DNA from: Phycisphaeraceae bacterium
GTDB lineage: Bacteria > Planctomycetota > Phycisphaerae > Phycisphaerales > Phycisphaeraceae
Assembly: GCA_020831765.1 (NCBI GenBank)
Contig: JAFIFY010000007.1
Span: forward strand, 1 to 64,000
Reading direction: 5' to 3'
DNA: 64,000 nt
The position numbers and the translations under genes are program-made. Each line of letters opens with the position of its first letter. Within the stretch, counting starts at the first letter, position 1. Below, one piece after another: positions 40,524-58,711 of this stretch. The notes below the pieces were generated by a model, which was given only the letters and a program-made list of their open reading frames with translations, was not told where the DNA came from and searched no databases.

Positions 40524-40577
40524 CTTCAGAACCACTCCTTTCGAATCCAGTCGCTCCTGGAACACCGGCCGTCGAAA

Positions 40578-41684: not shown

Positions 41685-41778
41685 CGTCAAGACTCCTTAT
41701 GCTCTTCGTGGCGACTCTTGTTTCCGGCCACATTCGCCCCTGACCGCTTTGCGGACGGATCGCGAGTAACAACTTCCG

Positions 41779-43146
41779 CTAGATGCCAAGATCCCAGCCC
41801 TTGCGGTACTCGCGGCGGATGTACTGATCCGCCTCCGGAGCATTGGGACACCTCAAGTTCGCCGCATCCCACTGAATCTTCCTGCCCACGAGATAGGCCA
41901 CATTGGCCAGATTCATCGCTTCGTTGAGCGGGCCGGCATAGAGGAAATTGCTCTTGGGGTAGTCCCACGCCTCCTGCCCGGTACACGCCCGGAGCCACTC
42001 GGCCGTATGCCCTGGCGAGGCTGGGATCGTTTCGACCTCGACCTTGCCAGCCTGAAGGTCTTCGGACAGTGCCGTCATTGCCGATTCGGGAATCAGGCGG
42101 GGACTGTTCCCGTAATCGCCGGCCACGAGTAGTTTGCCCTTGGTTCCGATGAAAAGGGAACCGGAACCGGGCAGGTCCTTGTTCCGACGCGCCGGGTCGT
42201 TGAGAATTTCCTCCGGCACCTCCGGTTTCCAGCCGCCCTCGTACCAATACGCATCAAACGCCGGCCGATCGCCCTTGGCGGGAAACTCCCACTTATAGGC
42301 CGCGCGGCGGGGAAATGTTTCGCTGTTTCGCTCCGGCTCGAATCGAAGGCACTCGGCCGAGGAGGGAGCGTCCGGGTCCATCGCCCACCAGACGCAATCC
42401 CAGGTGTGAGCGCCCATATCGCCGATCGCGCCGCAGCCGAAATCAATCCACCCCCGCCACCCGAAGGGATGCAGATGCTGATGTCGCTCACGAAACGGCG
42501 CCGGGCCGATCCAGACATCCCAGTCCAGATTTTGCGGCACATCGATCGTTGGCGGCCGCTGGGCGATGCCCTGGGGCCAGACCGGCCGGTTCGTCCACGT
42601 ATGAACCTCCGTGATCGTGCCCAGCACGCCCGCGCGCACCCACTCGACCACTCGCCGATTGCCCTGGTTGGCGTGGCCTTGATTGCCCATCTGCGTCGCC
42701 ACCTTGCGCCGTGCCGTCTCCTGTGCGATCACCCGGGCTTCGTGGATGTTGAAGGTCAGCGGCTTTTCGCAATAGACATGCTTCCCCGCCTGAAGCGCGC
42801 GCATGACGGCCGGTGCGTGCTGATGATCGGGCGTGGAAATGATGACCGCATCGATCTGACGCTCCAGCTCATCAAACATCTTGCGCCAGTCCTGAAAGAC
42901 CTTGGCGTCGGGATATCGTCGGGTCGCGTTGCCCAGACGACCCAGATCAACCTCGCAGAGAGCAACGCAATTGTGATTGCCGCTGGCGCCCAGATGGGCT
43001 CCGCCTCGCCCCCCGACACCGATGTGCGCGATGCCCAGTTTGTTGTTGGCCGCATCCGCACGAAGGATCGATGGGCCTGTCGCGGCCATGACCGCCATGG
43101 CGGAGAGCGAACCCTGTATGAACTTGCGGCGGGTAATGTGACTCAT
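41779..43146 (-). CDS. Tat-exported Gfo/Idh/MocA oxidoreductase (copy B)
   Basis: This is the paralogue of copy A, with the same 455-residue length. The Tat signal is ITRRKFIQGSLSAMAVMAA, the dinucleotide motif is IGVGGRGGAH, and HVYCEKPLTF and the whole segment after it (ARVIAQETARRKVATQMGN) are identical to copy A. Differences cluster at scattered surface-like positions, for example around residues 290-310. It is the first gene of the minus-strand trio, divergent from the ThuA-DUF1080 gene across a 278-bp region that should hold both promoters. The substrate is unknown. Confidence 0.88.
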   Translation of the reverse strand: MSHITRRKFIQGSLSAMAVMAATGPSILRADAANNKLGIAHIGVGGRGGAHLGASGNHNCVALCEVDLGRLGNATRRYPDAKVFQDWRKMFDELERQIDAVIISTPDHQHAPAVMRALQAGKHVYCEKPLTFNIHEARVIAQETARRKVATQMGNQGHANQGNRRVVEWVRAGVLGTITEVHTWTNRPVWPQGIAQRPPTIDVPQNLDWDVWIGPAPFRERHQHLHPFGWRGWIDFGCGAIGDMGAHTWDCVWWAMDPDAPSSAECLRFEPERNSETFPRRAAYKWEFPAKGDRPAFDAYWYEGGWKPEVPEEILNDPARRNKDLPGSGSLFIGTKGKLLVAGDYGNSPRLIPESAMTALSEDLQAGKVEVETIPASPGHTAEWLRACTGQEAWDYPKSNFLYAGPLNEAMNLANVAYLVGRKIQWDAANLRCPNAPEADQYIRREYRKGWDLGI

Positions 43147-43424
43147 GATGAAGTGATCCCTGTGAGGAATTTCTTTGGCTTTCAACGTGGCTCTTCCGGC
43201 AGCGGCATTCCAGCCGGGTCCATCGACTCGGGCATAATGGTTTACCCTGTCCGGTTATTGCCGCAATACCCAGGAGCGCCGGTTTCGCGATGACGCAAAA
43301 GAGATAATAACGTCCGCCATAAAACGCCGAAATCCATCATCGCACCCAATAAGAAGCGCCGTGGAACGTTGCCCCACAAGTTAACCTTTTCGCGTGCGAC
43401 ATGACCATCCCCAGGAGACAACCG

Positions 43425-45014
43425 ATGAGACGCACCCCATACCTGCTCTTGGCCGCCACATTCTGCCTGGTCGCCGCCACCCTCCACATGAATGTCCATG
43501 CCGAGCCTCGGCCCACTTCGGTCAATGAGCGGATCGCCGAACGGGTCGAAGCGGCGATTCCCGAAAAGGCCCCCGCCGAGCCCAAAGCCAAGCGGCGGGT
43601 ACTGGTCTTTTATCGAACGGCCGGGTTCCGTCACGGCTCGATTCCGGTGGGCAATCATGCCCTGGCGAAGATGGGTGAAAAGACCGGGGCGTATGAAGCC
43701 GTGGTCAGCGACGACATTGCCATGTTCGAGCCGGAGAACCTGGCCCAGTTCGATGTCGTGATCATGAACAATACGACCGGAGAGGTCTTCCTGCCGAGCA
43801 ACCCGACCGAGGAGGACCGCAAGCGCGAAGCGCGGGTGAAGGAAGCCCTGCTTGAGTTCGTTCGTGGTGGAAATGGCCTGGTGGGCATCCACGCCGCCAC
43901 CGATACGCTCTACCAGTGGGCTGAGTATGGCAGGATGATCGGCGCTTATTTCACCAGCCATCCCTGGCATACCACGGTGCCGGTCAAGGTTGATGATTCC
44001 GAAAGTCCGCTGATGGCGATGTTCCCGAAAGATGGCTTCCAGATTCACGATGAGATTTACCAGTTCGCCGACCGCCGCGGCACCGGGCAGCCGTACTCAC
44101 GCTCCCGGCTTCGGGTGCTGATGAGCCTCGATGAGAACAAGATGGATGTCAGCCGGGGAGGCCGCCCGGACAATGACTATGCCTTGAGTTGGATTCGCCA
44201 GGAGGAGATGGGCCGGGTCTTCTACACGGCCCTTGGTCACCGCGATGAGATTTTCTGGAATCCCCAGGTGCTCGCCCACCTTCTGGCCGGCATTCAGTAC
44301 GCCGCGGGCGATCTTGAAGCCGATGCCACGCCCAGCAATCCTCCGGAAGAACCCGAGCGACCCCACAACACCCTGAGCAAGGAAGAAAAGGAGGCGGGTT
44401 GGAAGCTGCTGTTTGATGGCCAATCCACCGAGCATTGGCGGGGCTTCCATCGACAGGCACTGCCCGACGGCTGGCAGGCGGTGGACGGCACGCTGGCTCG
44501 TGTCGCGCGCGGCGGAGACATCGTCACCGTCGAGCAATTCGACCACTTTGATTTGAAGCTGGACTGGAAAGTTTCGCCGCGCGGCAACAGCGGCATCTTC
44601 TTCCGCGTGGCTGAAAACCATGACGGCCAACGCTTCGGCTCGGTCTGGCACACCGGACCGGAGTACCAGATCCTTGACGATGCCAGACACGGCGATGGGC
44701 GCAATCGATTGACCAGCGCCGGCTCGAACTATGCCATGCATGCCCCGGCCCATGATGTGGTGCGACCGGCCGGTGAATGGAACCGCGCACGACTGATCGT
44801 TCACGGCGATCGTGTCGAGCACTATCTCAACGGTCGCCTGATCGTCCGTTACGACCTGGGTTCCGAGGAATGGAAGCGGCTTTTCCAAGCCAGCAAGTTC
44901 CGCAACCATGCCGGCTACGGGCGCATGCCCATCGGTCACATCGCCCTTCAGGATCACGGCGATGCGGTGTGGTTCCGCAACATCAAGATTCGTAAGCTTG
45001 AGGCTCCGGAATGA
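43425..45014 (+). CDS. exported ThuA-like / DUF1080 fusion protein
   Basis: A Sec signal (YLLLAATFCLVAATL, cleavage near VHA-EP) precedes a ThuA-like glutamine-amidotransferase-fold domain (about 45-290: VLVFYRTAGFRHGSIP, FVRGGNGLVGIHAATDT, GHRDEIFWNP). A DUF1080 domain follows (about 320-525: KLLFDGQSTEHWRGF, SGIFFRVAENHDG, PIGHIALQDHG). ThuA proteins act in 3-keto-trehalose metabolism and DUF1080 cleaves 3-keto-glycosides, so the fusion probably handles one oxidised sugar. ATG 43425 is chosen over 43401 because CCAGGAGA lies directly upstream of it and begins a clean signal peptide; 529 residues. Confidence 0.85.
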   Translation: MRRTPYLLLAATFCLVAATLHMNVHAEPRPTSVNERIAERVEAAIPEKAPAEPKAKRRVLVFYRTAGFRHGSIPVGNHALAKMGEKTGAYEAVVSDDIAMFEPENLAQFDVVIMNNTTGEVFLPSNPTEEDRKREARVKEALLEFVRGGNGLVGIHAATDTLYQWAEYGRMIGAYFTSHPWHTTVPVKVDDSESPLMAMFPKDGFQIHDEIYQFADRRGTGQPYSRSRLRVLMSLDENKMDVSRGGRPDNDYALSWIRQEEMGRVFYTALGHRDEIFWNPQVLAHLLAGIQYAAGDLEADATPSNPPEEPERPHNTLSKEEKEAGWKLLFDGQSTEHWRGFHRQALPDGWQAVDGTLARVARGGDIVTVEQFDHFDLKLDWKVSPRGNSGIFFRVAENHDGQRFGSVWHTGPEYQILDDARHGDGRNRLTSAGSNYAMHAPAHDVVRPAGEWNRARLIVHGDRVEHYLNGRLIVRYDLGSEEWKRLFQASKFRNHAGYGRMPIGHIALQDHGDAVWFRNIKIRKLEAPE

Positions 45015-45149: not shown

Positions 45150-46688
45150 ATGCCCGAGACATCACCACCCATCGCCGTTGAAGGACTGACCAAGGACTTC
45201 ATGGCCGTGCGAGCGCTCAGCGATGTCTCGCTGGCGTTCGAGGCGGGTGCTGTCCATGGTCTGATCGGCGAGAACGGCGCGGGCAAAAGCACGCTGATGA
45301 AGGTCTTGAGCGGCCTGATCCGCCCCACCGCCGGCCATGTTCTGGTCGAGGGCCGGCACGTGGAATTTCATTCGGCCCGGGATGCCCAGGATGCGGGCAT
45401 CGCGATGATTCACCAGGAGTTGAATCTCGTTCCCGAGCTGAGTGTGGCTGAGAATATCTTCCTGGGCCGCGAGTCGAAACGGTGGGGGCTGATTCATCGC
45501 CGCGCCATGGCCGAGCAAGCCCGGGTCCATCTGGAATCGGTCGGCGGTTCGGTCGATCCGCACACCCTGGTCCAGGATCTTTCCATCGCCCAGCGACAGA
45601 TGGTGGAGATCGCCAAGGCGCTTAGCCAGCGGGCGGGCGTCATCATTATGGACGAGCCGACCGCGGTGCTCACGCGGCGGGAAGTGGAGTTGCTCTTCGA
45701 TCTGATTTCGCGCCTGCGGGAGCGCGGCGCTGCGATCATCTACATCTCCCATGTGCTGTCGGAAGTGTTGCGCATCTGCGATCGGATCAGTGTTCTGCGT
45801 GATGGACGGCTGGTCACGACGCGGGATAACGATGGGAGCCTGGACGATGCGCAACTGGCCAACCTGATGGTCGGACGGAAGCTGGACCACCAGTTTCCCG
45901 ATCGACGTGGGCACGACGACCAGGTGGTGCTCAGCGTGCGTGGCTTGAGCGCGGCGGGGGGCATCAAGGATGCCTCTTTGGAGTTGCGCCGTGGCGAGAT
46001 ACTCGGTTTCGCCGGCCTGATCGGAGCCGGACGAACCGAACTGGCCGAGGCCATCGTCGGGCTCGGCCATCGCACGGCGGGCCAGATGCTCCTGAACGAC
46101 AAACCCTTCGCCCCCCGGAATCTGGCCGCCTCTATCGGACAGGGCGTGACCTACCTCTCCGAGGATCGCCACGGCAAGGGCGTGGTTCTGGGCATGCCGG
46201 TCACCCACAACACCACGCTGGCCTCACTCCGTCGTTACTGCCACCCGCTGATCAACGCCACCGAGGAACTGGCCGCGACACGAAAGCACATCCAGCAACT
46301 GGGCATCCGGCTCGGTCATGCGCGGCAGATGATCGATACGCTCAGTGGAGGCAATCAACAGAAGGTGGCCCTGGCGCGGTGGTTGGAAATGGAGCCGGCG
46401 GTGCTGATCCTCGATGAGCCGACGCGCGGCGTCGATGTGGGTGCCAAGGCCGAGATTTACCGGCTGATCGCCCAACTGGCCGACCGGGGTCTTGCCTGTA
46501 TGATGATCTCCTCCGAGCTTCACGAACTTCTGGGTCTTTGCCATCGAATCGCGGTCATGCGGGGCGGCCGGATCGTCGCCATCGTCGATGGCCCCACCGC
46601 GACCGAAGAGCGGATCATGCACCTGGCCGCGGGCGTGATGCCGAAAGTCGAGGCAACGGACCGCCCCACGGAAATCGCCGCCGGATGA
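45150..46688 (+). CDS. sugar ABC transporter ATPase, two-domain (RbsA/MglA type)
   Basis: Two nucleotide-binding domains lie in tandem (512 residues). The first has Walker A GENGAGKST, LSIAQRQMVEIAKAL and IIMDEPTAVLT. The second has the usual altered P-loop GLIGAGRTEL with LSGGNQQKVALARWL and ILDEPTRGVDVGAK. This is the carbohydrate uptake transporter-2 type that energises import of monosaccharides. Its stop overlaps the permease start by 4 nt (ATGA). Confidence 0.94.
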   Translation: MPETSPPIAVEGLTKDFMAVRALSDVSLAFEAGAVHGLIGENGAGKSTLMKVLSGLIRPTAGHVLVEGRHVEFHSARDAQDAGIAMIHQELNLVPELSVAENIFLGRESKRWGLIHRRAMAEQARVHLESVGGSVDPHTLVQDLSIAQRQMVEIAKALSQRAGVIIMDEPTAVLTRREVELLFDLISRLRERGAAIIYISHVLSEVLRICDRISVLRDGRLVTTRDNDGSLDDAQLANLMVGRKLDHQFPDRRGHDDQVVLSVRGLSAAGGIKDASLELRRGEILGFAGLIGAGRTELAEAIVGLGHRTAGQMLLNDKPFAPRNLAASIGQGVTYLSEDRHGKGVVLGMPVTHNTTLASLRRYCHPLINATEELAATRKHIQQLGIRLGHARQMIDTLSGGNQQKVALARWLEMEPAVLILDEPTRGVDVGAKAEIYRLIAQLADRGLACMMISSELHELLGLCHRIAVMRGGRIVAIVDGPTATEERIMHLAAGVMPKVEATDRPTEIAAG

Positions 46689-47764
46689 GCAACGGTCAGC
46701 CTGAAAACCCGACCTCACCCCCTCCCGCACCGTCGGTTGCCCCTCCGACGCCGGTCCATGCGCTACTCCGTCGACTGGCGTCGTTGCCGTCCTGGACAGG
46801 CGCACTAGTGGCCCTGGCCGTCCTCGTGGCCCTGACCGCCGCGACCAATCCGGCCTTTCTTACGCTGGTCAACATCATCAACATCCTCAATACCAACGCC
46901 ATGCTGGGCATCATCGCGGTGGGCATGACGCTGGTGATCATCCTCGGCGGCATTGATTTATCCGTGGGCTCGCTGATGGCGTTCGCCGCGGGGCTCGGGG
47001 CGATGGCCCTGGCCGCGATCGCCGGTGAAGGGGCGGGCAATGAATGGCTCGCGGTCGCGGCGGGGTTCGGGGTGGCGTCGGCCATCGGCCTGGCCGGCGG
47101 TTGGCTCAATGGGGCGTTGATCGCCTGGGGACGCCTGGCCCCGTTCATCGCCACCCTCGCCGGTCTGGTGGCCTACCGATCGGCCATCACCTGGATGGCC
47201 GATGGAGGCCATATTTCCGCCCGGGGCACGGCACTGCTGGAGACCATCGGCCGGGGCATCCAGATTCCATTCACCGAGGGCATCCGAACCGGGGGCGTTC
47301 ACCTGCCCGTGGCGATCATCGCCTTTTTCGCCATCGCCGGCGCGGGCATGATCCTGCTGAATCTCACCCGCCTGGGCCGCCACATCGTCGCCATCGGCTC
47401 CAACGAGCAGGCCGCCCGGTATTCGGCCATCAACGTCGAGTGGGTCAAGTTCACCACCTATGGCATCATCGGACTGCTTTCCGGCGTCGCGGCGTTCTTC
47501 TACATCGCCCGCTTCGAATCGGTCAACAGCGGCTCGGCCGGCCAGTTGCTGGAACTGGAGGTCATCGCGGCGGTGGTGATCGGCGGTACCCGGATGCAGG
47601 GCGGTTCGGGTAGCATTACCGGAACGGTCATCGGCGTCCTGCTCATCGGCGTGATCCGAAACACGCTGGTCCTGCAGAACGTCAATACCTATGCCCACGG
47701 CCTGGTGATGGGCTCGATCATCATCGTGGCCGTATTGCTCCAGCAACTGGCGACCCGCCGCTGA
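46685..47764 (+). CDS. sugar ABC transporter permease (RbsC type)
   Basis: The protein has 359 residues with about nine hydrophobic segments. The RbsC/BPD_transp_2 signatures are LGIIAVGMTLVIILGGIDLSVGSLM and IGSNEQAARYSAINV. ATG 46685 overlaps the ATPase stop and removes an out-of-family extension. The N-terminal 35 residues are Pro-rich and non-conserved. The gene cluster order ATPase-permease-binding protein is standard. Confidence 0.93.
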   Translation: MSNGQPENPTSPPPAPSVAPPTPVHALLRRLASLPSWTGALVALAVLVALTAATNPAFLTLVNIINILNTNAMLGIIAVGMTLVIILGGIDLSVGSLMAFAAGLGAMALAAIAGEGAGNEWLAVAAGFGVASAIGLAGGWLNGALIAWGRLAPFIATLAGLVAYRSAITWMADGGHISARGTALLETIGRGIQIPFTEGIRTGGVHLPVAIIAFFAIAGAGMILLNLTRLGRHIVAIGSNEQAARYSAINVEWVKFTTYGIIGLLSGVAAFFYIARFESVNSGSAGQLLELEVIAAVVIGGTRMQGGSGSITGTVIGVLLIGVIRNTLVLQNVNTYAHGLVMGSIIIVAVLLQQLATRR

Positions 47765-47856
47765 TTGATCAAAGGCCCCCCTGTGCGTGCCGGTCGGCGC
47801 GAAACAGGGAACCCAACCGAACGAATATCGCCCCACAATCGCCAAGGATCTTCACC

Positions 47857-48906
47857 ATGCTCAACACACTACTACGACTCATTCCCCTGTCGGCCATGAT
47901 TCTGGCCGTTGTCTTGCTCATCCTCCCCGCCTGCGGCCCCGCCGCGGAAGAGGGTGAACGGCGACCCGTCATCGGGGTCTCCGTCCCTGAAGCCACTCAT
48001 GGATGGACCGCCGGCATCGGCCACTGGGCCAACGAGGCGATGAAGAAGTACCCGGAAGTCGAGTGGCGCTTCCAACGCGCGGCCGGCGGAGCCCAGCAGG
48101 TGTCCCATATCGAGGCGATGCTGGCGGCGGGAATTGATGCGCTGGTCTTTCTTCCTCAGGATGCCGCTGAAGTCATGCCGGCCATTCGCCAGGCCAAGCG
48201 TCAGGGCGTCTATGTGGTGAGCGTGGATCGCGGCCTGGAGGAAGAAATCGCCGATTTGTACGTCGCGGGCGACAACGCGGCTTTCGGCCGGATCGCGGCC
48301 GAGTTCATGGCCCGGAAGCTTGAGGGGCGTGGCAGGATCGCCATTCTGCGGGGCATGGCCGTCCCGATCGACAGCGAGCGGTATAACGCCGCCGTCCAAG
48401 TGTTTAACCGCTACCCGGACATCGAGATCGTCGCCACCCAGCGAGGCAACTGGAACCGCGCCCAGGCACAGCAGGTCATGGAGGACATCCTCACCGGTAA
48501 CCCGCGCATCGATGCCGTATGGGCTTCGGATGATGACATGGCACTGGGCGCGGAGCGGGCGATCGACAGAGCAGGACGCAAGGACGAAATGTGGATTCTC
48601 GGTGGGGCGGGCATGAAGGACATCATTCGACGCGTTCGCGACAACGACAGGATGTTTCCCGCCAATGTGACCTATCCGCCCTCGATGATCGCGACCGGCA
48701 TTCATCTGGCCGTCGCCGAAGTCCTTTTCGATGGCGATGAGACCCGGATCGCGGACAACATCCCCCACGATGCGGCGATCGACCGGGAAAGACTGCTCAC
48801 CGGGCGCGATCAGCGGCCCGAGGGCCAGCGCGAATTGAAGATCGACATCCAGTTGATCACCCCGGAAAACGCCGCCGACTTCTACTATCCGGATTCGCCG
48901 TTCTGA
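47857..48906 (+). CDS. sugar-binding lipoprotein (RbsB type)
   Basis: A lipoprotein signal ends in LPAC (Cys at about 26). The mature part is a periplasmic binding protein of family I: VIGVSVPEATHGWTAGIGHWAN, then IDALVFLPQDAAEV, VVSVDRGL, and AVWASDDDMALGAERAI. AAGGA precedes the ATG by about 8 nt, 92 bp after the permease. The sugar is not readable; the flanking ThuA-DUF1080 and Gfo/Idh/MocA genes suggest a keto-sugar or the monosaccharide released from it. Confidence 0.92.
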   Translation: MLNTLLRLIPLSAMILAVVLLILPACGPAAEEGERRPVIGVSVPEATHGWTAGIGHWANEAMKKYPEVEWRFQRAAGGAQQVSHIEAMLAAGIDALVFLPQDAAEVMPAIRQAKRQGVYVVSVDRGLEEEIADLYVAGDNAAFGRIAAEFMARKLEGRGRIAILRGMAVPIDSERYNAAVQVFNRYPDIEIVATQRGNWNRAQAQQVMEDILTGNPRIDAVWASDDDMALGAERAIDRAGRKDEMWILGGAGMKDIIRRVRDNDRMFPANVTYPPSMIATGIHLAVAEVLFDGDETRIADNIPHDAAIDRERLLTGRDQRPEGQRELKIDIQLITPENAADFYYPDSPF

Positions 48907-49059: not shown

Positions 49060-50406
49060 ATGAAGGATCCGCAGAAATCACCCGCCACCGGGCCGGGCAT
49101 CGACCGCCGGCGATTCATGCAGTCCGTCCTCGCCACGGGGGCGGGGCTGGCCCTCGTGCAGCCGATCTGGGCCTCAGCCGGCAATGGCGCGGCGGGGCAA
49201 CTCAATATCGCCATGATCGGTGCCGGCAGCCAGGGCCGTGTCCTGATGCTGGATGGCCTGAAGATACCGGGTATCCGCTTTCGCGCCGTGGCCGATGTCT
49301 GGGAATACTCGCGCCGGTACGCCAACAACATCCTTCAGCGGTTCGGCCAGCCCATCAACGTCTACGCCGATTACCGCGAAATGCTGGCTGAGGAAAAAGA
49401 CCTTGATGCCGTGTTGATCGCTTCGCCGGACTGGGTACACGCCGAGCAGACCAACGCCTGTCTCGAAGCCGGCCTCCATGTCTACTGCGAGAAGGAGATG
49501 TCCAACACGATCGAGGGTGCCAGAAGCATGGTCCAGGCGGCCAAGCGCACCGGAAAGCTGCTTCAGATCGGCCATCAGCGCCGCAGCAATCCGCGCTACC
49601 TCCACGCCAGAAGGCTGATCGACCGGGAACGCCTCCTGGGGCGGGTCACGCACTTTCAGGGACAATGGAATCGCTCGCGAAGACTTGAAGTGGGTTGGCC
49701 TCGCAATACAGAGATCGATGCGGCCGAGCTCAAACGACTGGGCTTTACCGACATGTTTCAGTTCCGCAATTGGCGGTGGTTCCGCGATTTTTCCGGCGGG
49801 CCGATGTCGGACCTTGGTTCGCATCAGATGGGGGTTTTCAACTGGATTCTCGGCAAGTCGCCGACGGCGGTGATGGCGGCGGGCGGCAACGACTATTACG
49901 AGCGCAACGAATGGTTCGACCACGTGATCGCAATCTTCGAGTATCCCGGTGACAAGGATTCAACGATCCGCGGAACGTACCAGGTGCTCAATACCACCAG
50001 TCACGGCGGCTTCCGTGAACTGCTCATGGGCGACGAGGGCACCCTGGCCATCTCGGAGGACCCCTCCGTGGGGTATGTCCTTCGCGAGCAGGAAGCCCAG
50101 CGGCGCGACTGGGAAGACGATGCCAATCGCGTCGAAGGCATGGACCGACGGGCCATTGCGCTTCAGGTCGGCGCTTCACGAAAGGCCGATGAACAGCACA
50201 TCGAACAGATCGATCAGGCGTTGGCCAAACCGCCCCATCAACTCCACCTCGAGAACTTCTTCGACACCATCCGCGACCCGCGTCGCAACTCACTCACCTG
50301 TCCCTCCGAATCGGCGTTCTCCGTCGCTGTCACGGTTCTGAAAACCAATGAGGCCGTTGAGAAGGGCGGGCGACTGGCGTTCGATCCGGCATGGTTCAAG
50401 GTCTGA
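49060..50406 (+). CDS. Tat-exported Gfo/Idh/MocA oxidoreductase (copy C)
   Basis: The Tat signal is DRRRFMQSVLATGAGLALV. The dinucleotide motif is IGAGSQGRVL. The usual EKP motif is changed to EKE (HVYCEKEMSN). The C-terminal domain has GGPMSDLGSHQMGVFNW. The 448-residue protein is clearly divergent from copies A and B. I use ATG 49060 rather than TTG 49051. The stop lies only 7 nt before the start of the seven-heme cytochrome gene, so they are probably co-translated. Whether the product uses NAD bound before export, as in glucose-fructose oxidoreductase, is not shown. Confidence 0.87.
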   Translation: MKDPQKSPATGPGIDRRRFMQSVLATGAGLALVQPIWASAGNGAAGQLNIAMIGAGSQGRVLMLDGLKIPGIRFRAVADVWEYSRRYANNILQRFGQPINVYADYREMLAEEKDLDAVLIASPDWVHAEQTNACLEAGLHVYCEKEMSNTIEGARSMVQAAKRTGKLLQIGHQRRSNPRYLHARRLIDRERLLGRVTHFQGQWNRSRRLEVGWPRNTEIDAAELKRLGFTDMFQFRNWRWFRDFSGGPMSDLGSHQMGVFNWILGKSPTAVMAAGGNDYYERNEWFDHVIAIFEYPGDKDSTIRGTYQVLNTTSHGGFRELLMGDEGTLAISEDPSVGYVLREQEAQRRDWEDDANRVEGMDRRAIALQVGASRKADEQHIEQIDQALAKPPHQLHLENFFDTIRDPRRNSLTCPSESAFSVAVTVLKTNEAVEKGGRLAFDPAWFKV

Positions 50407-50413
50407 TTTCCTG

Positions 50414-52363
50414 ATGCGATCGCCACGGTTGGGTGAATATCTGGCTTCGCTTGGCGGCCTCCTCGTCGTGGGGTTGACCGCGGGATTGATGCTGCTTCAT
50501 GCATGGGCGGGCTGGGCATCGCCGGCGGCACAGGATTCGGGCAGTCGGCAGCCTTATAAGCACATCCTCACGCTGTACGATGCCGAAGGCCGGATCATCG
50601 ATCCAACCGCGCCCGATGCCCGTCCCTATTCGCCGCGCATGACCTGCGGCCAGTGCCACGATTACGACAGCATCGCCAAGGGCTGGCATTTCAATGCCGC
50701 CGCGCACACCGTCAGCGTCGGCCGCCCCGGCGAGCCGTGGTTCCTCGTGGATGAAGAGACAGGCTCTCAGATTCCCATCTCCGATCGGGACTGGCCTGGC
50801 ACCCACACGCCCGAATCGCTGGGTCTGACACCGTGGGAATTCGCCCTGAAGTTTGGTCGCCACAACCCCGCCCCCGCCCCGTATGGCGAGCCGGGCGACC
50901 AGCCCGATGACCCCAAGGCACGCTGGGAAGTTTCCGGCCGCCTGGAAATCGACTGCATGATGTGCCACTCCGCAGACACGCGGTACGACCCTGCCGAACG
51001 GGCAAGGCAATTGCAGCGGCAGAACTTTCAGTGGATTCCGACCGTCGCCATGGGCTTGGGACGCGTGCGCACCGATGTCCGCGACCTGGAAGAGGAAGAC
51101 CCGCTGGCCGCGCTCGACCCGGCTTATGAAGGCCCCCAACTCCCCCCTGTCGAATACAACCGGAACAAGTTCGATGCCCAGGGCCGGGTCTTCTTTGATG
51201 TCCGCAGCAGACCCCTGACCGAAAGCTGCTACCACTGCCATTCATCACGCCAGGTCGGGCCCGACGCCCCGGTTCGCTGGCATCTTGAGCAGGATGTTCA
51301 TCTGGCCGCAGGCATGAGTTGCACCGACTGCCATCGAAATAGCATCGACCACAAGATCGTGCGAGGTCACGAAACCGAAGCCATCGAGACCGCCGATCCT
51401 GCGCGCGGCACGCTTTCATGTGCCGGCTGCCACTTAGGTGACGACCAGGTGGACCACCCGGCCATGGCGCTTGGCGGCCGGGGCGGAGCGCCTCATCCGC
51501 TGCATCGAGGCATCCCGCCGATCCACTTCGAGATCCTCAGTTGCACGGCGTGCCATTCCGGTCCGTGGCCCGAGCAGCACACCCATCCGGTCCAGACCTC
51601 GATGGCTCACGGCCTGGGCATTTCATCAACCGATCGAACCTGGCAGACGCCGCCGGAGATCGTCGCCCCGGTCATGGCCAAAGGGCACGATGGCAAGATC
51701 GCGCCTCACCGCATGGCGTGGCCATCGTTCTGGGGATGGCTGCTTCCCGATGGCGAGGTTCGCCCGATCGCCCCGGACCAGGTGAAAGGCGCGGCGGGAC
51801 CGTTGTTGAGTGCGTTGGCGAGCCGCGCCGATGGTGACCAGGCCGATGAGCCCCCTGCCCGTGACCCATCGGCGGACGATCAGCCGATTATCGATGTGCT
51901 TGAAGCGATTTCGATGCGCTTGAGCGCCGGCGCGGCCGAGGGGGCGGTACCGGTCCTGATCCGGGATGGATATCTGCACCATGCCGAGGAAGAGCGGCTG
52001 ATTCGCAAGGAACATTCGGCTGGCGAGCCCTACCTCTGGCCGCTGGCCCACGATGTCCGCCCGGCGGCGCAATCCCTGGGCGTGCGGGGCTGTACCGACT
52101 GCCATGCGACCGACGCTCCTTTCTACTTCGGCATGGTGTCGACCAGCTTCGGACAGGGCGATCCGGCGCGGCCGATCAAACAGATGTACGAACTGCACAC
52201 CCAGCAGCCCGTCCTGGCGCGGGCATGGGCGATGGCCTTTGCCACACGGCCGGCGTTTCAGGTGTTCCTTTTCGCCTGTACGCTGGTCACGCTACTGGTG
52301 CTGGTTCGTTACGGGCTGTCGGGCCTGGGCACCGCACTTGGCGCGGTGGCCGATCGGCGATGA
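50414..52363 (+). CDS. membrane-anchored seven-heme cytochrome c
   Basis: There are seven CxxCH heme-binding motifs at residues 78-82, 181-185, 272-276, 303-307, 336-340, 377-381 and 560-564. An N-terminal hydrophobic anchor (about 13-30) and a C-terminal helix (about 615-633) place the hemes outside the cytoplasmic membrane. The spacing and large inter-heme inserts resemble the octaheme/tetrathionate-reductase-like cytochromes, but I count seven motifs, not eight. ATG 50414 gives 649 residues and the anchor directly at the N-terminus. It is followed 85 bp later by a cytochrome b, its likely quinone-side partner. Confidence 0.9.
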   Translation: MRSPRLGEYLASLGGLLVVGLTAGLMLLHAWAGWASPAAQDSGSRQPYKHILTLYDAEGRIIDPTAPDARPYSPRMTCGQCHDYDSIAKGWHFNAAAHTVSVGRPGEPWFLVDEETGSQIPISDRDWPGTHTPESLGLTPWEFALKFGRHNPAPAPYGEPGDQPDDPKARWEVSGRLEIDCMMCHSADTRYDPAERARQLQRQNFQWIPTVAMGLGRVRTDVRDLEEEDPLAALDPAYEGPQLPPVEYNRNKFDAQGRVFFDVRSRPLTESCYHCHSSRQVGPDAPVRWHLEQDVHLAAGMSCTDCHRNSIDHKIVRGHETEAIETADPARGTLSCAGCHLGDDQVDHPAMALGGRGGAPHPLHRGIPPIHFEILSCTACHSGPWPEQHTHPVQTSMAHGLGISSTDRTWQTPPEIVAPVMAKGHDGKIAPHRMAWPSFWGWLLPDGEVRPIAPDQVKGAAGPLLSALASRADGDQADEPPARDPSADDQPIIDVLEAISMRLSAGAAEGAVPVLIRDGYLHHAEEERLIRKEHSAGEPYLWPLAHDVRPAAQSLGVRGCTDCHATDAPFYFGMVSTSFGQGDPARPIKQMYELHTQQPVLARAWAMAFATRPAFQVFLFACTLVTLLVLVRYGLSGLGTALGAVADRR

Positions 52364-52448
52364 CCATGGGCCAGTGATTTCCAGAACGCGTGTATCTTTA
52401 ACTCGGGGCCGTTGACGTCCACGACCGACTGAAGGTAACCAACCGACC

Positions 52449-53150
52449 ATGTTCGAGACTGTCTTCCTCATCCTCATCGCCACAGCGCTGGTCGGCATGC
52501 TGGTGCATCTGCTGTTTTTCGGACCCAAGCGGACTCTGGCCGAGACCGATGAAGATCGTGGCCGAACAGTCAGACGCCTTTCGCGACTGGAGCGGTTAAT
52601 TCACGCCATGCTGGCAACCAGCTTCCTGGTTCTGGCCGGGACCGGCATGGGCGCGATGTGGCTGGCCGGGGAACTTGGGGGCTGGATGCTGTACGCCCAT
52701 GTTCTGGCCGGCGCGATCTTTGCCGCGGCATTGACTGGGGCCATGATCCGGTGGGCTGCCCAGAACGTATTTATCCCACTGGATTTGCTGTGGGTCAGGC
52801 ACGGCTGGGGCGGTTTTTTCCGCCGCGCCGACCGCCACGCACCGGCCGGACGGTTCGATGCCGGGCAGAAAGTGCTCTTCTGGTTGACCGCCACCCTGGG
52901 GCTGGCGACGATGCTGACCATCCTGCTGACCATGCAGCCTTGGTTCGGCTATCGAGGCCAGGCAATTCTGATCGACCTGCATCGTTATGCTGGATTGCTT
53001 CTGGTGGTGGTTGTCCTGATCCACCTTTACGCAACGCTGCTGGCCAAGCCCGGGGCGTGGAAGAGCATGTTCCGGGGCCGGGTCAGCGCCGCATGGGCAC
53101 GATCGCATCATGAGTCGTGGCACAATGAGGCCACGCAAAAAGGAGATTAG
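52449..53150 (+). CDS. cytochrome b (formate dehydrogenase gamma/b561-like)
   Basis: Five hydrophobic segments lie at about 3-25, 48-72, 80-102, 143-163 and 176-198 in 233 residues. His52, His84, His178 and His192 lie within helices at positions suited to ligate two b hemes, as in FdnI/HydC-like cytochromes. It would exchange electrons between the quinone pool and the seven-heme cytochrome. GAAGGTAA lies about 9 nt upstream. The discoidin lipoprotein gene starts 2 nt after its stop. Confidence 0.85.
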   Translation: MFETVFLILIATALVGMLVHLLFFGPKRTLAETDEDRGRTVRRLSRLERLIHAMLATSFLVLAGTGMGAMWLAGELGGWMLYAHVLAGAIFAAALTGAMIRWAAQNVFIPLDLLWVRHGWGGFFRRADRHAPAGRFDAGQKVLFWLTATLGLATMLTILLTMQPWFGYRGQAILIDLHRYAGLLLVVVVLIHLYATLLAKPGAWKSMFRGRVSAAWARSHHESWHNEATQKGD

Positions 53151-53152
53151 AC

Positions 53153-53902
53153 ATGTTCGACCGAATAATGCCGGCGAGATCGGCGATCCGCCGAGTCACT
53201 GGACTGGTTCTTGCCCTGTCCCTGATGGCCGGCTGCGGCGACACCGGAGCAACGAGCGGCGATGCCGGCGAAGGTAACGACACGGCAAAAACCGCCTCGA
53301 AGGAATACCAGCTTGCCCCGTTGCCGGTAAAACTGCCCGAGCCCGCGTTCCTGGGCACGCCGGCGCACCTGGTCGAAGCCGGATTGCGCTTTGACCCCGA
53401 TGCGCCCGAACGCCGCCCCGAATTCCTCGCGCCCAGCGATGTCCAAAACGTCGCTCTGGGCAAACCCGTGACTTCCAGCGATCCCCACCCGATCATCGGA
53501 AGCCTGGACCTTGTCACCAACGGCGACAAGAACGCCCGGGACGCCGATTATGTCGAGCTGGGCTTCGGGCCCCAATGGGTCCAGATTGATCTTGAGCGAG
53601 AATACGACATCTACGCCATCGTCTTCTGGCAGCGACATGATGCGGCGATTGTCTACAACGCCGTGATTGTCCAGGTATCCAACGACCCGGAATTCAAGGA
53701 AGGCGTCACCATCCTCTTCAACAACGATCACGACAACAGCGCGGGCCTTGGCATCGGCGAGGATTACCAGTTCGTCTCGAATCATGAAGGGAAGCTGGTC
53801 GATGCCGGCGGTGTCCGTGCGCGTTATTTCCGCGTTCAGAGTTCGGGCAACACGCTCGATGACTTCTCGCACTTCACGGAGGTCGAGGTCTGGGCGAGGT
53901 AA
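53153..53902 (+). CDS. discoidin (F5/8 type C) domain lipoprotein
   Basis: A lipoprotein signal with LMAGC (Cys at about 27) precedes an F5/8C-like beta-sandwich (about 95-245): NVALGKPVTSSDPHP, then WVQIDLEREYDIYAIVFWQ and ARYFRVQSSG. Such domains bind carbohydrate or lipid. AAGGAG sits 8 nt before the ATG, and the cytochrome b gene ends 2 nt upstream, so it belongs to the electron-transfer operon, where its role is unclear. It is probably a periplasmic or surface lipoprotein. Confidence 0.82.
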   Translation: MFDRIMPARSAIRRVTGLVLALSLMAGCGDTGATSGDAGEGNDTAKTASKEYQLAPLPVKLPEPAFLGTPAHLVEAGLRFDPDAPERRPEFLAPSDVQNVALGKPVTSSDPHPIIGSLDLVTNGDKNARDADYVELGFGPQWVQIDLEREYDIYAIVFWQRHDAAIVYNAVIVQVSNDPEFKEGVTILFNNDHDNSAGLGIGEDYQFVSNHEGKLVDAGGVRARYFRVQSSGNTLDDFSHFTEVEVWAR

Positions 53903-53931
53903 GCGGCCGTCTGGCCCTGACAGCGTTCCTG

Positions 53932-55497
53932 ATGATCCTGCTCATCGGCGTCCTGGTCCGTCAGAACGCCGACCTGGGTCATCGACCGATGCATGCGGAC
54001 GAGGCCGTCCATGCCGTTCGCATGGCCACGCTCCTCGAGCATGGTCGTTTCCAATACGACCCCACGGAATTCCACGGGCCGAGTCTTTACTATCTGTCTT
54101 ATCCAGTACTACGGATTCAGGGGCGAAGCGATCTGGCCTCGTTCCAGAGCCGCGATCCGCGGTTGATCCCCCTGCTGGCCCTGGTCACGCTGATCGCACT
54201 GTCGGCGTTGCTGATTGATGGCTTGAGCCGGATCGGTGTCGCCGCCGCGGCGCTGCTGACCGCCACATCACCGGCGATGGCGTACTACGGTGGTTACTTC
54301 ATCCATGAACTTGTGCTCGTCCTGGCGACCTTCCTCGTCATCGCCTCGGTCTGGCGATATCTCCAACGGCCCCGCCTGCGCTGGATGATCATCGCGGGCC
54401 TCTCGCTTGGATTGATGCACGCCACCAAGGCCACCTGCATCATCGCGTGGTTCGCCATGCTCGTCGGCCTGGCCGCCTGTCTGATACGGCCGTCCGGTGC
54501 TCGACCCAAGGACACGGTGGATGACCCCAGCCAGCCAACGCCCTTCAAGCGCCTTCATGTGGTCTGGGGCCTGGTCGCCGCCGTGGCGTTTTCCGTGGTT
54601 CTGTTCAGTGGCGGGTTCACCCACATGCGTGGCCCCATCGATTCCGTGCTCGCCTGGGGGCCCTACTTCGGGCGAGGCATGGGTACCGCCGGGGACGCGG
54701 CCATACACGTGCATCCGTGGGATACCTATCTTCGCCAGTTGCTCCATTGGCGGTTCGGCAATGGTCCGATATGGTCGCAGGCGGTCATTGTCGCTTTTGC
54801 CCTCGTCGGCGCGGCGGGCGTGCTCATCGGGCGGCGCGATGTCGGCGGCCCCAATCCCATGCTGCTTCGCTTCCTGGCCGTCTACACGCTGATCATGCTG
54901 ACGATTTATTCGTTGATTCCCTACAAGACACCGTGGCTTGTGCTTGGCATGCTTCACGGCATGATCCTGCTGGCCGGCGGCGGGGTCGGTGTGTTGTGGC
55001 ACCTATTGCGAAATCCCCTGCCTCGCGTCGCGGTCGTCGCCCTTCTGCTTGCCGGATCATGGCACCTGCACACGCAAACCCAGCGAGCGCTCTCGCCTCG
55101 CCTGGCCGCCGATCCCCGCAACCCGTATGCCTACGCCCATACCGGCACGGCCATCAATCGGCTGGAGCAACGAATCAACGATCTGGTCCAACACCACCCG
55201 CAAGGCAGGGACATGATCGTCCATGTCATCTGTGAGAATTACTGGCCTCTGCCGTGGTATCTGCGGTCGCTCAACCATGTCGGCTACTGGCACGATGTCG
55301 CCGTGGATTACGGCCTCGAAACGGACCCGAGCCGGGAACCGGCGATCATACTCGTTGAGCTTGACAAGTCCGAAACGGTCAATGCCATGCTTAACCGCCC
55401 GATGCACCGCGAATTTTTCGGACTCCGTCCCGGAGTTCTGCTCATGGCATACATTGATGCCGAGCTCTGGGACGCATTCATCGAGACCCGGCGCTGA
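53932..55497 (+). CDS. TIGR03663-type membrane glycosyltransferase (GT39-like)
   Basis: The protein has about 521 residues and more than ten hydrophobic segments. RPMHADEAVHA after the first helix is the family's catalytic-loop signature, with SPAMAYYGGYFIHE and TPWLVLGMLHG further on. The archaeal relative Agl23 acts in protein glycosylation. No ribosome-binding site precedes ATG 53932. A strong GAGGTAA at 53895-53901 instead fits a CTG start at 53911, which would lengthen the first helix; both are in frame. The preceding lipoprotein gene ends at 53902. Confidence 0.78.
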   Translation: MILLIGVLVRQNADLGHRPMHADEAVHAVRMATLLEHGRFQYDPTEFHGPSLYYLSYPVLRIQGRSDLASFQSRDPRLIPLLALVTLIALSALLIDGLSRIGVAAAALLTATSPAMAYYGGYFIHELVLVLATFLVIASVWRYLQRPRLRWMIIAGLSLGLMHATKATCIIAWFAMLVGLAACLIRPSGARPKDTVDDPSQPTPFKRLHVVWGLVAAVAFSVVLFSGGFTHMRGPIDSVLAWGPYFGRGMGTAGDAAIHVHPWDTYLRQLLHWRFGNGPIWSQAVIVAFALVGAAGVLIGRRDVGGPNPMLLRFLAVYTLIMLTIYSLIPYKTPWLVLGMLHGMILLAGGGVGVLWHLLRNPLPRVAVVALLLAGSWHLHTQTQRALSPRLAADPRNPYAYAHTGTAINRLEQRINDLVQHHPQGRDMIVHVICENYWPLPWYLRSLNHVGYWHDVAVDYGLETDPSREPAIILVELDKSETVNAMLNRPMHREFFGLRPGVLLMAYIDAELWDAFIETRR

Positions 55498-55527
55498 TCG
55501 ATCGCCAGCCCGGGCGACAAGTCACCC

Positions 55528-56457
55528 ATGGCCGAATCATCCAAGCCAACTTCCAAGCCCAACGTTCCGGATCGCGCCATGCCCGGCGGGACGGTCCATC
55601 GCTTCAGCCATCGCGCCATGGCCGCGGAGTTCGAAGCGCTCCTGGTCAGCGATGATGCGCTTTACGCCGGGCAGGCCGCCGAGGCTGTCTTTGATGAAAT
55701 CGACCGGCTGGAACGGCAACTCAGCCGATTCATCCCCAACTCCGATATCGCCCAGCTCAACAGCCTGGCCCCCGGAAGTGCGATTCGAATCGGCGAAGCG
55801 ACCATGGACTGCCTGCTGTTGGCCTGCGAGTTGTTCGAAATGACCGGCGGGGCACTGGACATCACCTTCGGCTCGTCCCTGCCTGCGGGCGAATCGGGCA
55901 TGAAGCATCTGGGGCTGGACCCCGCGCGGCACTGTGCCGGCGTCACGGAGCCGGGGGTGCGCTTCGATCTCGGCGGACTGGGCAAAGGATACGCGCTGGA
56001 CCGGGCCGCGCTGCTCCTCAGGGAGTGGGGCATCCTCAACGCGCGCTTGCATGCCGGCCACAGCACGGTCTTGACGCTCGGAGCGTTGCCCGGAGAATCG
56101 GACTGGTCCATCGAAGTTCGCGATCCGCGCGGCGAACCGCCCGACGCCACTCTTGGCCGGGTGCGGCTCAAAGACGAAGCGATCAGTGGCTCGGATTCAC
56201 GGATTCAGCCGGGCCACATTGTCGATCCCCGCACGGGTGAGGCGGCAGAAGGCAAGCTGGGTTCCTGGGCGCTAACTCGATCAGCCGCGCTCAGCGATGG
56301 GTTGTCCACGGCGTGTTTCATCATGGATGACCTGGAAATCAGCCAGCTATGCCAAAAACGCGGCGATCTGGGCGCGCTGATCCTCATCGAGCGAGCGGGC
56401 GAGCCTCAAGTCGCCACCTACGGGCGGTTCGAATCGGTGTGGACCGTCGCCCGGTGA
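55528..56457 (+). CDS. apbE: FAD:protein FMN transferase ApbE
   Basis: ApbE attaches FMN to Ser/Thr of exported redox proteins. RFSHRAMAAEFEAL, RLERQLSRFIPNSDIAQLN, RFDLGGLGKGYALDRA and HIVDPRTGEA are the family blocks. The HAGHST block replaces the usual GGD-like motif. There is no lipoprotein or Tat signal, unlike most ApbE proteins, so it may act inside the cell or start differently. It lies 30 bp after the TIGR03663 gene, in line with the cytochrome genes. No obvious NqrC/RnfG-type substrate is in the window. Confidence 0.87.
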   Translation: MAESSKPTSKPNVPDRAMPGGTVHRFSHRAMAAEFEALLVSDDALYAGQAAEAVFDEIDRLERQLSRFIPNSDIAQLNSLAPGSAIRIGEATMDCLLLACELFEMTGGALDITFGSSLPAGESGMKHLGLDPARHCAGVTEPGVRFDLGGLGKGYALDRAALLLREWGILNARLHAGHSTVLTLGALPGESDWSIEVRDPRGEPPDATLGRVRLKDEAISGSDSRIQPGHIVDPRTGEAAEGKLGSWALTRSAALSDGLSTACFIMDDLEISQLCQKRGDLGALILIERAGEPQVATYGRFESVWTVAR

Positions 56458-56581: not shown

Positions 56582-57826
56582 ATGTCCAAAGTCGGTTCGA
56601 ATATCACCCGCCGGTCGTTTCTCAAAGGAGCCGCCGCGACCAGCGCTGCGTTCACCATCGTTCCCGCCCACGTCTTGGGCGGAAACGGACGACCCGCGCC
56701 CAGCGATACCTTCGGCGGCGCATTGATCGGTGTCGGGGGCATGGGGCCGGGCACCTATCGACGGCTCAGCCTGCCCAACCGGCAGCTTGCTCAATGCGAT
56801 GTTAAGTGGGTCGGGCAGGTGGACAATCGCAGCCGGTATACCGATTTCCGCAGGGTGTTGGAGCGCAAGGACATTGATCTGATCGCCATCGCCACGCCCC
56901 CTCACTGGCACGCGCTGATCTCGATCGCGGCCATGCAGGCAGGCAAGGATGTGCTCTGTGAGAAGCCGATGACCCGATTCATCGGCGAAGGGCGAGCCGT
57001 GGCCGAAGCGGAGAAGCGATACGGCCGCGTCTTTCAGGTCGGCACTTTCGGGCGCTTCGGCCAGTCCCGGCGTGAGGAGCATCGCAAGACTCGCCGCTTG
57101 CTGGCCAGCGGCCTGATCAAAAAATGCGATACCGTGGTGGTTCGGCGCGGGGGATTCAAAGTCAAGGAATGGTCCGGTCCGCTTGTTGCGCCCAGCACGC
57201 CGCCGGATCATCTGGACTGGGACATGTACTGCGGCCCATCGCCTCTCGTGCCGTACCAGCGGCCCCGCTTCGGCGGCATGCACCGGGGATACTGGGATTA
57301 CGACGGCGGCGGACTCGGGGACATGGGGCAGCATCACCTGGACCCGATCGCCTATACCTATGCCCTGGACACCACCGCGCCGGTCGAGGTCGAGGCGTAT
57401 GCCCCACCCGCGCATCCAATCGTCACAGGCATGTGGGGATGGGTGAAGCTCCGCTATGCCAACGGCTTCACCCTCGTGCTGGAAAGTGGTGAATGGCCTG
57501 ATCGCGATGCCAGAAGTGGTGAGCAGACGCGGAACACAAACTTCGAATACTTCTACAACCTGCTTTCCGAAGAAGACAAGCGAAAGTTCGATGCGATGCC
57601 GGACGAGGAGCCCTTGCTGGACTTCGCCAGCGCGGTCCGAGCGAGAAAGCCGGCCGGCGGCAACGCCGAGGCCGCCCATCGAACCATGACCATCATGCAC
57701 CTGGCCAATATCGCCATCCGAGTCGGGCGAACCATCCGCTTCGATCCGGTGACCGAACAGGTAATCGGCGATGACGAAGCCAACCGCCTGGCCCACCAGC
57801 CGATGCGGGCGCCTTGGCACCTCTAG
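56582..57826 (+). CDS. Tat-exported Gfo/Idh/MocA oxidoreductase (copy D)
   Basis: The Tat signal is NITRRSFLKGAAATSAAFTI. The dinucleotide-binding region is altered but recognisable (IGVGGMGPGTYRR), and DVLCEKPMTRF is the family EKP motif. The C-terminal domain has GGGLGDMGQHHLDPI. The 414-residue protein is shorter than copies A-C and only distantly similar to them. GGAG lies 8 nt before the ATG. The HEAT-repeat gene starts 33 bp downstream. The substrate is unknown. Confidence 0.85.
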   Translation: MSKVGSNITRRSFLKGAAATSAAFTIVPAHVLGGNGRPAPSDTFGGALIGVGGMGPGTYRRLSLPNRQLAQCDVKWVGQVDNRSRYTDFRRVLERKDIDLIAIATPPHWHALISIAAMQAGKDVLCEKPMTRFIGEGRAVAEAEKRYGRVFQVGTFGRFGQSRREEHRKTRRLLASGLIKKCDTVVVRRGGFKVKEWSGPLVAPSTPPDHLDWDMYCGPSPLVPYQRPRFGGMHRGYWDYDGGGLGDMGQHHLDPIAYTYALDTTAPVEVEAYAPPAHPIVTGMWGWVKLRYANGFTLVLESGEWPDRDARSGEQTRNTNFEYFYNLLSEEDKRKFDAMPDEEPLLDFASAVRARKPAGGNAEAAHRTMTIMHLANIAIRVGRTIRFDPVTEQVIGDDEANRLAHQPMRAPWHL

Positions 57827-57859: not shown

Positions 57860-58711
57860 ATGAACAAGACCACAGACCGAATCGAGGCCCTTCTTGCCGG
57901 ACTTCCCGATCTGGATCGGCATCGCAAGGTTGACGGGCTGCCTCCTGATGAGGCCGACAACCTGGCTCAACGCCTGATCGAAGCCGGTTCTGAAGCGATC
58001 ATTGAACTGATTGATCGTTCACCGGCCGAATATGACGATGGCGACTATCGGCCACGATATCTCGTGCACCTGACCGCCTCCTATGCCTGTCGGCCGGGTA
58101 TGGAAGCAGCCAGGCGGATGCTGGCCTCCGCGCTGGCCGCCGCACTGGATGGCGAGCGGTCCGAGGGGCACAAGGCTTTCATCATCGGTGAGCTGCAATA
58201 CCTGGGCCTGCCTTCGGCAGCGCCGGCGCTGGGGCGCGCATTGGTTGCCGGCAGCGATCGACTATGCGAATGCGCTGCCCGCGCGCTTCAGGCGATTGGA
58301 GTGGGCGGCCCGTTGATCGAGGCCCTGGACAAGCTCGATGGAGCGCCCCGGCGCTCGGTCATCAACGCCCTGGCCCCGATGAAGCTGGCCAAAGCAGCGC
58401 CGGCGCTCCGCACAGCCCTGGCCGATCCTGATGCCGATACCCGCATCCTGGCATCACACGCCCTCGCTCAACTCGGTGATCGCGATGCGATTCAGCCCCT
58501 GCTTACGGCATGCCAGACGTATGACGGCTGGGAGGGCATTCAACATGCCCGCTCAGCAATCATCATGGCCGAGCGACTGGCGGCGGCGGGCCACGTTCGC
58601 GATGCGCGGCGGGTGTATACCCGGCTCGGCGAGTTGCATAAGCATGAGAAAGACCAGTACCTGCGCGATGTCGTCCAACGTGGTATCGCGCAGCTCCACG
58701 GGACGTCCTGA
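57860..58711 (+). CDS. HEAT-repeat-like protein
   Basis: The 283-residue protein is mainly helical. Repeats of about 30 residues are visible between about 110 and 230, for example APALGRALVAGSDRLCECAARAL, APALRTALADPDADTRILASHALAQLGD and IQPLLTACQ. These match the PBS-lyase/HEAT type and normally form a protein-binding solenoid. There is no signal peptide. AAGGAG precedes the ATG. It is the last gene of the long plus-strand run. Confidence 0.75.
   Translation: MNKTTDRIEALLAGLPDLDRHRKVDGLPPDEADNLAQRLIEAGSEAIIELIDRSPAEYDDGDYRPRYLVHLTASYACRPGMEAARRMLASALAAALDGERSEGHKAFIIGELQYLGLPSAAPALGRALVAGSDRLCECAARALQAIGVGGPLIEALDKLDGAPRRSVINALAPMKLAKAAPALRTALADPDADTRILASHALAQLGDRDAIQPLLTACQTYDGWEGIQHARSAIIMAERLAAAGHVRDARRVYTRLGELHKHEKDQYLRDVVQRGIAQLHGTS

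Follow-up and report, generated by a model that had tools for sequence, protein, structure and literature searches.

A conserved gene block of Planctomycetota suggests wiring of an exported sugar-oxidizing enzyme to the membrane electron chain

The first 64,000 nt of contig JAFIFY010000007.1 from a Phycisphaeraceae bacterium (the window, by which we mean this full stretch) encode an oxidoreductase of the Gfo/Idh/MocA (GIM) type with a twin-arginine translocation (Tat) leader (GIM1), a seven-heme c-type cytochrome (MCC), and a diheme cytochrome b (CYTB). Comparison with other genomes places these genes in a conserved block, shared by many Planctomycetota and including a lipoprotein of sugar-binding type (DISC), which suggests a connection of an exported sugar-oxidizing enzyme with the membrane electron chain via the seven-heme/two-heme pair. 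The parts of this module are all proteins of familiar kinds; their combination is new to the literature searched, a limited set in which no published module of a GIM with a multiheme cytochrome was found and in which the exact name Gfo/Idh/MocA is not searchable as written. A preliminary description of the locus had named the first three genes, and these, their order, and the 7-nt spacing between the GIM1 stop and the MCC start (50407-50413) were all confirmed from the sequence. Its end point of 53150 falls too early: DISC, an Agl23/PMT glycosyltransferase (PMT), and an ApbE-family protein continue on the same strand (53153-56457), with gaps of 2, 29, and 30 nt (CYTB-DISC, DISC-PMT, and PMT-ApbE, respectively), and are also members of the unit. 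The genes of the block, with a second GIM beyond it, are:

49060..50406, + strand: GIM1, Gfo/Idh/MocA oxidoreductase with a Tat leader, RRRF near residue 16 (Pfam PF01408, tree, clade alignment)
50414..52363, + strand: MCC, seven-heme c-type cytochrome of 649 aa with seven CxxCH motifs and hydrophobic helices at 4-32 (N-terminal) and 612-648 (C-terminal)
52449..53150, + strand: CYTB, FdnI-type diheme cytochrome b with an additional N-terminal hydrophobic segment (PF01292)
53153..53902, + strand: DISC, small lipoprotein with a CBM32 / F5_8 type C-like domain (lipobox MAGC, Foldseek)
53932..55497, + strand: PMT, Agl23-type glycosyltransferase (TIGR03663 over cut-off)
55528..56457, + strand: ApbE-family protein, FAD:protein FMN transferase type (PF02424, 2e-39)
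56582..57826, + strand: GIM2, second Tat-type Gfo/Idh/MocA protein (PF19051, PF01408, TAT_signal)

We examined the neighborhoods of 39 MCC loci of the window's class, the window's own included, within a sample of 198 genomes of that class (L-numbers denote loci and G-numbers genomes sampled for comparison). In 28 of the 39, GIM1 is found upstream of MCC and on its strand, always as a member of one GIM clade (ApbE intervenes in two), and in G044 the pair is apparently split over two contigs; conservation of the gene order, which the preliminary description had proposed as a check, is thus strong. CYTB follows MCC or is fused to it at 36 loci, DISC lies within the stretch examined around MCC at 30, and PMT comes after DISC in most. 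Genomes differ in how the parts are ordered but keep the set, an indication that it works as a unit. Beyond the class, GIM1 and MCC are adjacent in L199, L200, and L202, and also in L201, where GIM1 is cut by the contig end. Chance adjacency was rejected on the 28 same-strand loci, the single clade, and the co-occurrence described next, GIM-family matches being few in the window's genome (25 in 4.7 Mb). Relatives of MCC were found in 40 of the 198 genomes, and the seven other genomes sampled from the window's own family have none; a contig scan with a single sequence, an insensitive query, matched two loci, both in Phycisphaerae.

At a GIM1-type threshold of E up to 1e-80, and with 39 MCC positives after one weak match was set aside, GIM1 is present in 38, MCC in 39, and both in 35 of the 198 genomes, against 7.5 expected; GIM1 and DISC are common to 37. 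These shared genomes include cases of GIM1 and MCC lying far apart or on different contigs (G045, G184, G112, G176, G018, and G055). Genes of the 3-keto-disaccharide hydrolase family are found in all 39 MCC genomes, with a median of 10 versus 1 elsewhere (uncorrected for genome size), an abundance that suggests a setting of glycoside oxidation.

GIM1 belongs to the Gfo/Idh/MocA family (PF01408, PF22725, and PF02894 above cut-off; GFO_IDH_MocA Pfam E = 2e-18), and its leader, DRRRFMQSVLATGAGLALV, combines a twin-arginine motif (DRRRFMQS) with a hydrophobic stretch, so that Tat export, as the preliminary description had it, is predicted. A twin-arginine leader is present in 41 of 42 aligned GIM1-clade proteins, whose alignment keeps the GxGxxG-type, EK, and DxGxH motifs; the clade carries the signature CEKEMSNT / LLQIGHQRRSNP / DLGSHQ, in which Glu replaces the usual Pro of EKP. 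In a FastTree phylogeny of 120 GIM proteins, the GIM1-type sequences form one group of 43 rows on a long stem with support of 99; several rows from the window's own genome are short, and the tree supports this grouping and not the deeper order. Four other GIMs labeled as upstream of MCC are sited further upstream and fall elsewhere in the tree. The BT2158-type glycoside 3-dehydrogenase of Bacteroides (NF058561; PMC11300592) is likewise a periplasmic Gfo/Idh/MocA enzyme of glycoside use, as proposed here for GIM1, but GIM1 and GIM2 score 86 and 156 bits against the 750-bit cut-off of that model, and PMC11300592 mentions no cytochrome partner. GIM2, which follows ApbE in the window, L033, and L055, is probably accessory.

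The seven hemes attributed to the cytochrome in the preliminary description correspond to seven counted CxxCH motifs, at MCC residues 78, 181, 272, 303, 336, 377, and 560, all of which are invariant in 34 aligned homologs. Besides the motif His, H92, H296, H313, H364, H371, and H546 are invariant in the same homologs and H50 is nearly so; we take these additional residues to be the likely distal ligands of seven bis-His hemes, in which case MCC would be a carrier and not a catalyst. No curated NCBIfam cytochrome equivalog was passed by MCC (the best, TIGR04314, gave 34.6 bits versus 250), and its structural model (pLDDT 82) found no fold match in the Protein Data Bank (PDB). On these two counts a known reductase was rejected as the identity of MCC; membership in a defined reductase family, which would have spoken against the original proposal, was looked for and not seen.

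The two hemes of E. coli FdnI are held by its H18, H57, H155, and H169. On these residues (1kqf_C) align H52, H84, H178, and H192 of CYTB, which also matches PF01292 and is thereby an FdnI-type diheme cytochrome b, in agreement with the two-heme type assigned earlier. The two proteins are homologous, C-terminal tail included, but the partner of CYTB is a multiheme cytochrome instead of an iron–sulfur subunit, and CYTB scores 88.4 bits on TIGR01583 (formate dehydrogenase gamma), below the cut-off of 115.85. A formate dehydrogenase was rejected: CYTB is of FdnI type, yet no formate dehydrogenase gene adjoins it. At nine loci (L033, L055, L060, L063, L202, L203, L204, L207, and L209) MCC and CYTB are one open reading frame (ORF), the profile of CYTB hitting the C-terminal portion of the ORF that encodes MCC; we regard the pair as a single device.

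The structural model of DISC (pLDDT 84) retrieves CBM32 structures by Foldseek (4zy9, 2j22, and others; E about 6e-8), which identifies a galactose-binding-like beta-sandwich of the CBM32 / F5_8 type C kind, although the Pfam score is slightly under cut-off. Our guess from this fold is that DISC might bind sugar or hold GIM1 in place. DISC domains are repeated within one ORF or as tandem genes, up to about four copies, in G057 (contig C98), G110 (C134), and G169 (C550).

Three genomes, G010, G141, and G186, have GIM1 and DISC and lack MCC. In G010 (L128:7976-15838), a set of NqrD-, NqrE-, NqrF-, and NqrB-like genes comes after GIM1 on its strand, and next is an ORF in which an NqrC/RnfG-type FMN_bind domain (ISGAT) is fused to a CBM32-like, DISC-type domain, with a further DISC after it. 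In G141 (L129), GIM1 precedes an FMN_bind (LVTGAS)-DISC fusion, a further DISC, PMT, and ApbE; no comparable flavin-type genes lie in the stretch of G186 examined. In these two genomes (L128 and L129), which have neither MCC nor CYTB, flavin-type electron-transfer genes therefore occupy the place of the cytochromes. Two other arrangements were noted. In G099 (L138:2225-10290), a member of the GIM1 clade is accompanied by a permease, a DUF6807-DISC fusion, PMT, and ApbE, and MCC and CYTB are absent. In another class, a family (f39) has a short seven-heme MCC (~565 aa) adjoining a protein of the FGE/sulfatase-modifying-factor type, and, on the opposite strand, an exported lipoprotein ApbE with a Tat-type GIM of a different clade; this arrangement (L213:4830-10258, similar in L210-L212, L214, and L215) is kept in at least six genomes.

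The ApbE-family assignment in the window is firm (PF02424, 136 bits versus 25.6). The protein is the only ApbE of its genome and has no visible signal peptide, as is also the case for known cytosolic ApbEs (PMC12052999). The published flavinylation motif is Dxx[ST]GA[ST] (PMC12052999); a loose version, [DEN]xx[ST][GA]A[ST], matched nothing in the MCC, CYTB, DISC, PMT, and ApbE rows and their relatives and gave one stray match in GIM1 of L067, so that no module protein was retained as a flavin target by motif. A genome-wide scan with D[GA]x[ST]GA[ST], narrower than the published motif, gave no convincing ORF; ApbE targets outside this narrow motif are possible. No FMN_bind protein was found in the window's genome either, and service of ApbE to an ordinary Nqr/Rnf there was rejected on that ground. 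By these scans the genome appears to have neither form of ApbE-flavinylated system, with a motif-bearing or an FMN_bind partner. The flavinylated extracytosolic electron-transfer systems described elsewhere (PMC8238504, PMC11334425) resemble the module in having ApbE in the block and, in L128 and L129, FMN_bind-DISC beside GIM1, and differ in that flavin partner found wanting in the window's genome; flavin and heme carriers are used interchangeably in such systems, as described in 2021 (PMC8238504). The main texts of the two papers mention neither "Planctomycet-" nor "Gfo".

Taking coupling and direction jointly, we give a little better than an even chance to a mechanism in which GIM1 with bound NAD(P) oxidizes a sugar or glycoside and passes the electrons via MCC and CYTB to menaquinone. 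GIM1 would be a dehydrogenase of sugars, probably glycosides, that Tat exports across the membrane in folded form with its NAD(P) tightly held; DISC would contribute sugar binding or anchoring of GIM1; and the reduced cofactor would be reoxidized by electron transfer, not by a second sugar, along a path from GIM1 through the seven MCC hemes and the two CYTB b hemes to menaquinone. We infer the bound cofactor, the electron transfer itself, and the quinone end point; a flavin step may also belong to the module, ApbE being only a hint of one. We favor this mechanism because the adjacency holds at 28 of 39 loci and at three to four loci of other classes for one clade at support 99; because the 35 common genomes exceed the 7.5 expected, unlinked cases included; because MCC-CYTB fusions recur and CYTB has the four FdnI heme ligands; because the invariant additional His of MCC fit bis-His, carrier-type hemes; because FMN_bind-DISC comes after GIM1 in L128 and L129, with an Nqr-like set in L128; because a different Tat-GIM occurs with ApbE and MCC in f39; because every MCC genome has 3-keto-disaccharide hydrolase genes; and because a bound cofactor has precedents among exported GIM enzymes (PMC4628093). 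The link between exported GIM and cytochrome pair drawn in the preliminary description is well supported by adjacency, the single clade, unlinked co-occurrence, and fusions; the electron transfer that it envisaged, and its direction, we only infer.

FAD-dependent periplasmic sugar 3-dehydrogenases pass electrons to cytochrome c. They would thus resemble the module, if our reading is right, in channeling electrons from extracytoplasmic sugar oxidation into cytochrome c, and they differ in family and in using a flavin cofactor versus the NAD-type fold of GIM1. A broader reading, which we hold tentatively and at somewhat less than an even chance, is that the never-released NAD(P) of a Gfo/Idh/MocA enzyme acts as an internal relay that connects sugars in the periplasm with the respiratory chain by way of interchangeable carriers, namely the seven-heme/b pair in most genomes and flavin/Nqr-type proteins joined to DISC in others. 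Planctomycetota have many exported NAD-type sugar oxidoreductases, whose turnover without free NAD is an open question; by joining a single dedicated clade with a cytochrome pair of quinone type, the conserved module makes that question directly testable. If true, the proposed coupling would tie respiration to the use of glycans in waters and sediments and would be a new route from an NAD-type dehydrogenase outside the cytoplasm to the membrane chain.

Several observations weigh against the proposed mechanism. MCC occurs without GIM1 in four genomes and GIM1 without MCC in three, so that neither is strictly dependent on the other. Kinship is left out of account in the co-occurrence figures, and a control, GIM2, is found in MCC genomes in 28 of 31 cases; descent or lifestyle therefore adds to the signal. 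The flavin-type replacement is a comparison of gene places in two genomes, not proof of exchanged function. The search of the window's genome yielded no flavin carrier, which leaves the hydride-to-heme (two-to-one electron) step unexplained. Finally, many CYTB relatives are without one or two heme ligands (the counterparts of H52 or H192), and these may have lost the second b heme or bind it otherwise. Many such relatives retain a His at position 20 of the additional N-terminal segment, and some CYTB relatives have an insert bearing His; heme ligation may have shifted in relatives of this kind.

As to direction, electron transfer from a sugar alcohol to menaquinone is downhill, and the plentiful 3-keto-glycoside hydrolase-type genes suit an oxidizing first step; we lean modestly toward oxidation. 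Both points count against reverse flow, in which quinol, or NADH via an Nqr-like set, would reduce MCC/FMN and then the GIM1 cofactor, and GIM1 would reduce a keto-sugar outside the cytoplasm. We regard this as unlikely, while noting that identical parts permit either direction, that the Nqr-like set of L128 includes an NADH-binding NqrF-type subunit, and that Nqr/Rnf-like systems have been proposed to send electrons outward (PMC11334425).

It is also rather improbable that MCC-CYTB is a quinol oxidase like CbcL of Geobacter sulfurreducens, serving other periplasmic or outer acceptors, with GIM1 merely coregulated and both used for growth on glycans. CbcL shares the layout and role, a multiheme c part being joined to a diheme b membrane part (PMC9129911) as in the nine fused loci; the four MCC genomes without GIM1 and the strong co-occurrence of the control GIM also suit this explanation. 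However, a single GIM clade of many stands at the cytochrome, the pair survives shuffled orders, GIM1 and MCC co-occur unlinked, and flavin-type genes take the same place in two genomes. The likeness to CbcL is one of layout: with nine c hemes and six helices, CbcL sends electrons outward to metals and electrodes (PMC9129911), whereas the module has seven hemes, an FdnI-type b, an adjoining dedicated exported dehydrogenase, and, in the window, separate MCC and CYTB genes.

The glucose-fructose and aldose-aldose oxidoreductases (GFOR and AAOR; PMC4628093) are exported Gfo/Idh/MocA enzymes that do not release their cofactor and recycle it with a second sugar; GIM1 is distantly related to them and lies beside an electron-transfer module. 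That GIM1 itself works in this way, with no electron carrier and with neighbors mechanistically unrelated to it, is very improbable: GFOR and AAOR do work without added cofactor (PMC4628093) and GIM1 keeps the usual GIM motifs, but its weak local match to GFOR spans only ~110 residues, and the conserved tie to MCC, CYTB, DISC, and ApbE would go unexplained. Both this and the CbcL-like explanation suit the gene evidence less well than transfer from GIM1 to the cytochromes.

The short-gapped + strand gene run extends past ApbE and GIM2 to 58711, and sugar-related genes lie upstream of the module:

57860..58711, + strand: HEAT-repeat protein (PF13646), last of the + strand run, with a weak link to the module
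43425..45014, + strand: ThuA / 3-keto-disaccharide hydrolase-type two-domain protein (PF06283, PF06439)
45150..48906, + strand: sugar ABC transporter genes, RbsA-, RbsC-, and RbsB-like (the binding protein called via PF13407, the other two from translation alone)

On the opposite strand (39156-43185, -), two more Gfo/Idh/MocA genes stand on either side of a 3-keto-disaccharide hydrolase-type gene, likely a second glycoside-oxidation cluster a few kilobases upstream of the module.

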